In this document: one piece after another, positions 23,711 to 26,301 of the stretch
How positions within the stretch are numbered: the first letter of the stretch is position 1
Layout: the number at the start of each line of letters is the position of its first letter
Source of the DNA: Gammaproteobacteria bacterium
GTDB taxonomy: Bacteria; Pseudomonadota; Gammaproteobacteria; Natronospirales; JAJUFS01
Direction: 5' to 3'
Length of the DNA: 35,796 bases
NCBI GenBank assembly: GCA_029263725.1
Contig: JAJUFS010000008.1
Span: 1-35,796 of the forward strand
Notes under the pieces: model-generated
Database searches by the model: none
What the model saw: the letters and a program-made list of their open reading frames with translations, nothing else
What the model was told of the DNA's origin: nothing
Made by a program: the position numbers and the translations under genes

Positions 23711-23899
23711 GAACATCTCCTGCGGTGTTCGAAACGGGCTGGGGTACCCTTAGAGCCTAATCAAACCCCCCGGAGCTCATTCCCGGGGCGACGGTGCGCA
23801 AGTCCACCCTCGAGTGGAAAGCCTAAAGCGTCCTGGTGAGCTCCACCTGAACCGATGGTTCTAGGGCGATGGTCCGTTACGGCACAGGCGGGAGATGTC
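23711..23899 (+). ncRNA. ssrS: 6S RNA
   Basis: The region between zapA and the formyl-THF cyclo-ligase gene is where 6S RNA sits in gammaproteobacteria. It shows the expected long closing stem: gaacatctcctgcggtgttcg at the 5' end pairs with cggcacaggcgggagatgtc at the 3' end. Internal features also match, including a central bubble flanked by paired segments and the 3' cacctgaaccgatggttcta hairpin that resembles E. coli 6S. 6S RNA mimics an open promoter and sequesters sigma70 RNA polymerase in stationary phase. Ends are approximate to within about 10 bases. The ygfA start lies about 9 bases past the 3' end. Confidence 0.9.
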
Positions 23900-24510: not shown

Positions 24511-24990
24511 ATGAGCTACTGGCTGATGAAGTCCGAGCCCGACGTGTTCAGCATCGATGATCTGCGGCGGAAGGGTCCGCGCGGCACCCACTGGGATGGC
24601 GTCCGCAACTACCAGGCGCGGAACTTCATGCGGGAGATGAAGCCCGGCGACCAGGCATTCTTCTATCACTCCAACTGCAAGGAGCCGGGCATCGTCGGCG
24701 TGATGGAGGTGGTGCGTGAAGCCTACCCGGATCACACTGCCTTCGACCCGAAGGATCCGCATTTCGATCCGAAGAGCGATCCCGCCAGGCCGCGCTGGTA
24801 CATGGTTGATGTCGCCTACGTCGAGAAGTTTCCGCGCACCATCACCCTCGATGCACTCCGCCTCAATCATTCGCTTGCCGAGATGCTCATTCTTCGCCGC
24901 GGCAATCGACTCTCGGTGACACCGGTGACGGCAAGTGAATGGAAGGCGGTGATGAAGATGGTCGCCTCATCAACTGATCACTCGCGATAA
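24511..24990 (+). CDS. EVE domain-containing protein (THYN1-like)
   Basis: The 159-residue protein is a single EVE domain, related to PUA/YTH folds that bind modified nucleic acid bases. Family marks include MSYWLMKSEPDVFSIDDL, HWDGVRNYQARNFMREMKPGD, FFYHSNCKEPGIVGV, and the aspartate/proline-rich DPKDPHFDPKSDP loop followed by WYMVDVAYVEKF. A GGAG site precedes the ATG. It follows ygfA by 12 bases and is likely cotranscribed. EVE proteins have been tied to modified-DNA restriction and to RNA. No restriction genes are nearby, so a housekeeping role is more likely. Confidence 0.93.
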   Translation: MSYWLMKSEPDVFSIDDLRRKGPRGTHWDGVRNYQARNFMREMKPGDQAFFYHSNCKEPGIVGVMEVVREAYPDHTAFDPKDPHFDPKSDPARPRWYMVDVAYVEKFPRTITLDALRLNHSLAEMLILRRGNRLSVTPVTASEWKAVMKMVASSTDHSR

Positions 24991-25054
24991 AAAATTGACA
25001 TTGCTGGAAAATTGACTTTTCTGATATATACTCAAAGCCGAGTGATCGGTCACT
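24976..25054. promoter_or_regulatory. Repeats flanking the promoter of the H1-like gene
   Basis: gatcactcg (24976-24984) and cgagtgatc (25039-25047) form a perfect 9-base inverted repeat on either side of the promoter region. The direct repeat aaaattgac occurs at 24991-24999 and 25008-25016, exactly 17 bases apart. agtga-tcgg-tcact (25041-25054) is a small palindrome. Together they suggest a regulated promoter. The regulator is unknown. Confidence 0.5.
25001..25030 (+). promoter_or_regulatory. Candidate promoter for the H1-like repeat gene
   Basis: TTGCTG (25001-25006) and TATATA (25025-25030) are separated by 18 bases, with a TG one base before the -10 (TGaTATATA). TTGACA at 24995 is too far from this -10 to pair with it. 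The AT-rich stretch stands out from the GC-rich surroundings. Confidence 0.5.
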
Positions 25055-25073
25055 TTATTTTGGGAGGATCAAC

Positions 25074-25496
25074 ATGGCTGCCAAAAAGAAAGCCACTGCA
25101 AAGAAGAAGACCGCCGCCAAAAAGCGGGTCGCAAGCAAGAAGCCGGTAGCGAAGAAGAAGAAGGCTACCGCCAAGAAGAAGGTAGGCGCCAAGAAGAAGG
25201 TTGCTGCCAAGAAGAAGAAAGTCGGTGCCAAGAAGAAGGCCGGCGCAAAGAAGAAGGTAGCTGCCAAGAAGAAGAAGGTCGGCGCCAAGAAGAAGAAGGT
25301 CGGCGCCAAGAAGAAGAAGGTCGGCGCCAAGAAGAAGGCCGGCGCAAAGAAGAAGGTAGCTGCCAAGAAGAAGGTCGGCGCCAAGAAGAAGGCTCCGGCC
25401 AAGAAGACTGCGAAGAAGACCGCCGCCAAGCGCAAGAAGACCACCGCGCGCAAGACGACGGCTCGCAGGACGACGGCCTCCAAGGCTTCGATGTAA
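25074..25496 (+). CDS. Lysine/alanine-rich histone H1-like repeat protein
   Basis: The 140-residue protein is made almost wholly of Lys, Ala, Val and Gly in tandem repeats such as KKKVGAKKK and KKKVAAKKK. Its C-terminal tail is rich in threonine and arginine ([19 protein letters not shown]). It resembles eukaryotic H1 tails and bacterial AlgP, Hc2 and BpH1-type proteins. It is very basic and likely disordered, and probably binds DNA or RNA to compact the nucleoid. At DNA level the repeats (ggtcggcgccaagaagaag) are nearly identical, so length may vary between strains. GGGAGG precedes the ATG by 7 bases. A strong terminator follows. The specific role in this organism is unknown. Confidence 0.88.
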
Positions 25497-25519
25497 TTCC
25501 TGCCTCTGGCAGTTTCATG

Positions 25520-25550
25520 AAGGCCCGGGTAAATCCCGGGCCTTTTCTTT
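25520..25550 (+). terminator. Intrinsic terminator after the H1-like gene
   Basis: aaggcccggg-taaat-cccgggcctt is a perfect 10-bp stem followed by ttttcttt, 24 bases past the stop codon. Confidence 0.92.
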
Positions 25551-25641
25551 TGCGCAACCTCCCCTCCCACACCGGTTCGCGAAGACCTTTTCTTTTGCCC
25601 GATCGGCGGAGACAATGCCTGATTTCAACCGGGAAACGATC

Positions 25642-26301
25642 ATGACCGCTGACGACAAGAAGCGCGCGGCCGCCCGTGCCGCGCTGGATCATCTCGACGA
25701 CGCAAGAATCATCGGCGTCGGCACCGGCTCGACCGTAAACCACTTCATCGATGCACTTGGCAGCATCCGCGACCGCATTGAAGGCGCGGTGTCCAGCTCC
25801 GAGGCGTCCACCGCTCGCCTGCGCACGGCGGGAATACCCGTACTTGATCTCAACCAGACCGGCACCCTGGACGTCTACGTCGACGGTGCCGACGAGGCGA
25901 ACCGGCAGCTCCAGCTCATCAAGGGTGGCGGCGGGGCGCTGACACGGGAAAAGATCGTGGCGGAAGCGAGCCGGCGTTTCGTCTGCATCGCGGATGACAG
26001 CAAGCTGGTGGGGCTGCTCGGCGCATTTCCATTGCCGGTCGAAGTCATTCCCATGGCGCGCAGCCTGGTGGCACGGAAGCTCGTTGCCCTGGGCGGCCAG
26101 CCCGCACTGCGCGAGGGCTTCGTCACCGACAACGGCAACGTGATCCTCGATGTGCGCAACCTCGACTTCACCGACGCGGCCGGCCTGGAAACCCGCATCA
26201 ACAACATCCCAGGCGTGATCACCTGTGGCATCTTCGCGCACCGGCCTGCGGACCTGCTGCTGTTGGGCACCGACAACGGCGTCGAGGTCATTCGCGCCTG
26301 A
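25642..26301 (+). CDS. rpiA: Ribose-5-phosphate isomerase A
   Basis: RpiA interconverts ribose-5-phosphate and ribulose-5-phosphate in the pentose phosphate pathway. The protein from [15 protein letters not shown] is 219 residues, identical in length to E. coli RpiA. Signatures are [46 protein letters not shown] and CIADDSKLV. The catalytic glutamate falls in the TREKI segment. An earlier ATG at 25615 has a GGAG sequence only about 3 bases away and would add nine residues not typical of the family. I prefer the second, but the first cannot be excluded. Confidence 0.95.

Follow-up and report, generated by a model that had tools for sequence, protein, structure and literature searches.

A lysine-rich H1-like repeat gene with a conserved promoter between the EVE-domain gene and rpiA in Gammaproteobacteria

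Gene order and expression signals at the locus

The window, i.e. the whole stretch of 35,796 nucleotides that was analysed, carries in this order zapA, 6S RNA (23714-23898), fau, the gene of an EVE-domain protein (24511-24990, + strand; PF01878, E 1.8e-62), a gene for an H1-like lysine/alanine-rich repeat protein (25074-25496, + strand) and rpiA (25615-26301, + strand; PF06026, E 1.6e-58; NF001924, E 1.1e-87), followed by rpsI/rplM on the opposite strand. The 6S RNA extends into the beginning of the longest fau ORF (from 23869), and the true start of fau is therefore probably located further downstream.

The H1-like gene starts with ATG, has a coding capacity of 140 amino acids and was recognised by composition and third-position bias. 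A single copy was found in the genome of the window (assembly 83% complete, 202 contigs). Pattern search, alignment and a promoter scan all placed a conserved promoter at 25004-25034 (+ strand): a -35-like CTGGAA (25004-25009) and a TATACT -10 box (25027-25032), separated by a 17-nt spacer and followed by CA. Alignment identified a Shine-Dalgarno sequence, GGGAGG (25062-25067, + strand), 6 nt ahead of the ATG. Downstream from the gene, a strong intrinsic terminator is predicted at 25519-25553 (+ strand), with an 11-bp stem followed by a T-rich tail (MFE -29 kcal/mol, z -4.7); this terminator suggests that the H1-like gene is its own transcription unit, with its own conserved promoter.

The pattern CTGGAA-N14-16-TATATACTCA was searched together with a reversed control. 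It occurred exactly once per genome in 17 of the 19 genomes of the order, each time directly upstream of a K/R-rich ORF, and the reversed control gave no match. A sample of 369 genomes of the class yielded three further matches, again before K/R-rich ORFs, so that 20 of 20 matches precede such an ORF. The promoter core is invariant across the order, and the class-level loci have the TATACT box in common. The GGAGG of the Shine-Dalgarno sequence does not vary in the alignment of the order and hardly varies in the class set; most relatives also show a G+C stem and a T run 3' of the gene. The 70 nt ahead of the ATG were more similar than the EVE coding DNA in 9 of 10 species pairs compared. A 12-nt inverted repeat around the promoter (24973-24984/25039-25050, ACTGATCACTCG / CGAGTGATCGGT) is a possible operator; its downstream arm overlaps the partly conserved leader, but its upstream arm was not seen at that place in the aligned relatives.

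The H1-like frame is under selection as a coding sequence

No name for the window protein was obtained from Pfam, NCBIfam or PHROGs, and a PDB sequence search gave no real relative, its matches (E 0.04-0.56) being designed coiled coils and a fibre protein. The lack of a family match and the presence of a long antisense ORF (25055-25615, - strand) could mean that the frame is a spurious product of low complexity or that the antisense ORF is the real one. Comparison of five pairs of related species gave, at codon positions 1/2/3 of the sense frame, 5/3/23, 0/0/6, 0/2/5, 3/2/21 and 5/6/38 differences. Since the differences sit mostly at third positions, 25074-25496 is a real gene and not a chance frame, with purifying selection acting in its sense frame. 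The antisense ORF was rejected because the codon-position differences fit the sense frame; with the conserved promoter, the Shine-Dalgarno sequence and the terminator also on the + strand, the spurious-frame explanation is hardly credible. The family models largely miss the gene because of its low complexity.

Composition of the product and variation of the repeat array

The 140-aa protein contains 49% K+R (lysine 45%, arginine 4%) and 25% alanine and has neither acidic nor aromatic residues, giving a net charge of +68 and a pI of about 12. Repeat-type sequence starts at residue 2, with no N-terminal domain before it. By charge and hydropathy the protein falls deep inside the disordered range, and the single-sequence AlphaFold model is one long helix (residues 2-139, pTM 0.31) with no fold. 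No globular winged-helix domain was detected, either as a Pfam match or as a globular fold in the model, and no RNA-binding domain is recognisable. An earlier note, made from the DNA alone, had likened the product to histone H1; the resemblance to the H1 tail holds, the protein being lysine/alanine-rich, of low complexity and free of acidic and aromatic residues.

The same note had described the gene as tandem units with almost identical codons, the length of which slippage could change. The tandem construction was confirmed: Tandem Repeats Finder reported periods of 18, 21, 39 and 57 across 25136-25407 (+ strand), and ungapped copies are spaced by 18 or 21 nt, hence always in frame. The units are of the KKK(V/A)(G/A)A type, 6-7 residues long, with runs of 3-4 lysines. 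The point about codons stands in part. Lysine is encoded by AAG in 59 of 63 cases; however, the neighbouring genes are equally uniform (19 of 19), so that this uniformity alone is no sign of recent duplication. On the other hand, an exact repeat as long as the longest one observed (54 nt, offset 21) arose in no more than 2 of 500 shuffles of synonymous codons (shuffle mean 28), which indicates that genuine unit duplication has happened.

In arrays of relatives such as L097, L094 and L030, lysine is nearly always AAG although the adjoining EVE gene uses AAA freely (in L097, 90/93 lysines in the array against 8/15 in the EVE gene), perhaps reflecting avoidance of poly-A runs. A bias among alanine codons (GCT 8/35, against 2/73 in the neighbours) was dropped as a sign of high expression, since it is not clearly seen in the ribosomal genes of the window and since repeats are not independent of each other.

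The 29 distinct relatives contain 48-69% K+R, lack aromatic residues, have no more than one acidic residue each and range from 42 to 198 aa. All length comparisons are between species, and several arrays from metagenome-assembled genomes (MAGs) end or contain N runs, which makes those lengths uncertain. The repeat unit also varies, some relatives having AAPKRKK units; what stays the same is charge and composition, together with promoter and locus. Two species with 90% EVE DNA identity have proteins of 94 and 99 aa, and two with 80% identity have 17 and 25 ASKKK units. Repeat-driven change of length, as the note proposed, is thus supported between species, and unit number does differ; its attribution to slippage is not, as slippage and unequal recombination would both leave the same repeat pattern.

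The in-frame 18/21-nt units, the 54-nt exact repeat and these length differences would also fit a contingency locus, in which fast changes of unit number in a population would tune or switch the function. Against this, all units are multiples of 3 and provide no on/off switch, and protein length is the same in the three closest sister species pairs of the order (EVE DNA 88-93% identical). Some array lengths come, moreover, from MAG assemblies in which breaks or N runs affect the array or its edge (L026, L034, L037, L041, L047, L095). We regard a contingency locus as unlikely.

Distribution of the gene

Wherever the EVE locus could be located in a genome of the order, EVE is followed by a K/R-rich repeat ORF that either lies before rpiA or continues to the contig end. 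Among the best 80 EVE loci of a species-level genome collection, mostly more distant than the order of the window, the ORF follows EVE in 19, in two of which the array contains N runs; at 2 further loci the promoter lies at the end of a contig. Carriers group together on the EVE tree: presence changes 9 times, compared with 26 times on average when the labels are shuffled; the 9 is an overcount, L026 and L034 having been scored absent. The distribution is patchy, and many Gammaproteobacteria lack the gene beside EVE: at five loci (L067, L070, L072, L074, L079) rpiA directly follows EVE. At three others (L116, L121, L124) EVE was not found between fau and rpiA, yet the H1-like gene is present. 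The carriers found include one cultivated strain, Thiohalophilus thiocyanatoxydans DSM 16326 (L018).

Direct protein search among the relatives in the order performed poorly, since low-complexity sequence scores weakly: of the other carriers, at least 14 in number, it recovered just 2. Carriers were identified instead by synteny and promoter searches. The six metagenome contigs named above end or have N runs in or just before the array, and the gene is therefore probably under-counted in MAGs. In two other Gammaproteobacteria a long lysine-rich repeat tail was seen on the C-terminus of adenylate kinase (PF00406, PF05191), in G028 and G032 (L002 562-1914, + strand; L004 1501-2949, - strand).

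No description of an H1-like gene with a conserved promoter at the EVE-rpiA locus was found in the open-access papers searched, and this branch of H1-like proteins appears to be undescribed in those papers and in the family libraries. Locus and promoter show that the gene is inherited and under selection in several lineages of the Gammaproteobacteria.

A probable tail-only nucleoid protein

The most probable reading, in our judgement, is that the gene codes for a tail-only H1-like nucleoid protein which would condense or bridge DNA by charge. Nucleic-acid binding is suggested by the composition and by published relatives: the AlgP tail and KPAA peptides bind DNA (PMC9239181), as do Hc2 and BpH1 (PMC2848022). 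We also infer nucleoid condensation and high expression.

The lysine/alanine tail alone, probably disordered or loosely helical, might adopt a helical form along the nucleic acid and neutralise the phosphate backbone without sequence specificity; DNA would then be condensed or bridged as by the C-terminal tail of linker histone H1. The protein would work beside HU/IHF, which all 19 genomes of the order contain, and without detectable H-NS, for which a search with the single model PF00816 gave 0 of 19. Repeat units could be gained or lost in frame, with composition, promoter and locus kept, because function would rest on charge density and length and not on a fixed sequence.

Such likeness is no guarantee of a strong nucleoid role, given that bpH1 knockouts have no clear phenotype and that nucleoid condensation still occurs upon knockdown of chlamydial hctA/hctB (PMC13317200).

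Lysine tails bind any polyanion, and the protein might instead bind mainly RNA or ribosomes, as a polycationic factor that condenses RNA or damps translation. Hc2 binds RNA and represses translation, and it is reported to bind RNA more strongly than Hc1 does (PMC2848022), so RNA could be the main ligand. The 6S RNA lies near the locus, but this is a common gammaproteobacterial gene order and gives no evidence of a link. The best-studied relatives, AlgP, BpH1 and Hc2, are all reported as DNA binders, and the window protein has no recognisable RNA-binding domain; we therefore give the RNA reading a minor share of the probability.

A role like that of AlgP and PhaF, which tether granules of polyphosphate or PHA to the chromosome, was also considered. 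AlgP has a similar lysine/alanine tail and associates with polyP granules, the tail being needed for granule spacing (PMC9239181). However, three nearly complete genomes with the gene (G001, G003, G005; 97-100% complete) have neither PPK1 (PF02503) nor PPK2 (PF03976), both of which the same searches find in sister genomes, and the window protein has no N-terminal domain able to bind a granule. PPK1 and PPK2 were not found in the 83% complete genome of the window either. The PPK-less carriers make an AlgP-type polyphosphate role unlikely as the general function, and the tether explanation as a whole very improbable. Proteins of the H1-like lysine-rich kind need not, then, be tied to polyphosphate. 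Control of exopolysaccharide, raised by the earlier note, finds no support: the link derives from AlgP, and nothing in the present data bears on such a role.

Returning to the tail-only nucleoid protein, a wider formulation is put forward tentatively, as possible but somewhat doubtful in its entirety: an unnamed family of tail-only linker-histone-like nucleoid proteins, located at zapA-6S-fau-EVE-rpiA in several gammaproteobacterial lineages, with a one-per-genome promoter, independent of polyphosphate and bridging DNA where H-NS is absent, in which selection would act on promoter, charge and approximate length and not on sequence. The gene offers a clean test case of whether a polycationic tail without a folded domain can organise a bacterial chromosome.

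Comparison with known systems

By its make-up the protein would belong to the broad kind of bacterial H1-like lysine-rich proteins, being nearest to AlgP, PhaF, BpH1 and Hc2. A protein of the BpH1 (Bordetella) type would be expected to be expressed in exponential growth. BpH1 and the Hc2-like proteins of Burkholderia and Ralstonia also consist of lysine-rich repeats, their length being set by repeat number (PMC2848022); the reported units are pentamers (in Hc2 with two basic residues of five), whereas those of the window have 6-7 residues with runs of 3-4 lysines. Hc2/HctB of Chlamydia (PF07382) is likewise H1-like, repeat-based and variable in length. The window protein matched 0 Pfam families at E<=10, PF07382 included, and of six members of its family only one matched PF07382, weakly (E 0.014); the HMMER composition correction weakens this test for such sequences.

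AlgP of Pseudomonas aeruginosa, also gammaproteobacterial, shares an H1-tail-like lysine/alanine repeat region and reported DNA binding (PMC9239181). It differs in its KPAA repeats, in an N-terminal part predicted to be helical and in working with polyP granules, whereas the window protein has the KKK(V/A)(G/A)A unit, no N-terminal domain, the fau/EVE-rpiA locus and some hosts without PPK. PhaF has a C-terminal tail like that of AlgP, presumed to bind DNA (PMC9239181); the window protein has no counterpart of the N-terminal part of PhaF, which serves granule binding and oligomerisation. With the C-terminal domain of eukaryotic histone H1 the protein shares a lysine/alanine-rich, low-complexity and probably disordered character, without the winged-helix globular domain, and this resemblance is likely to reflect convergent composition rather than demonstrated homology.
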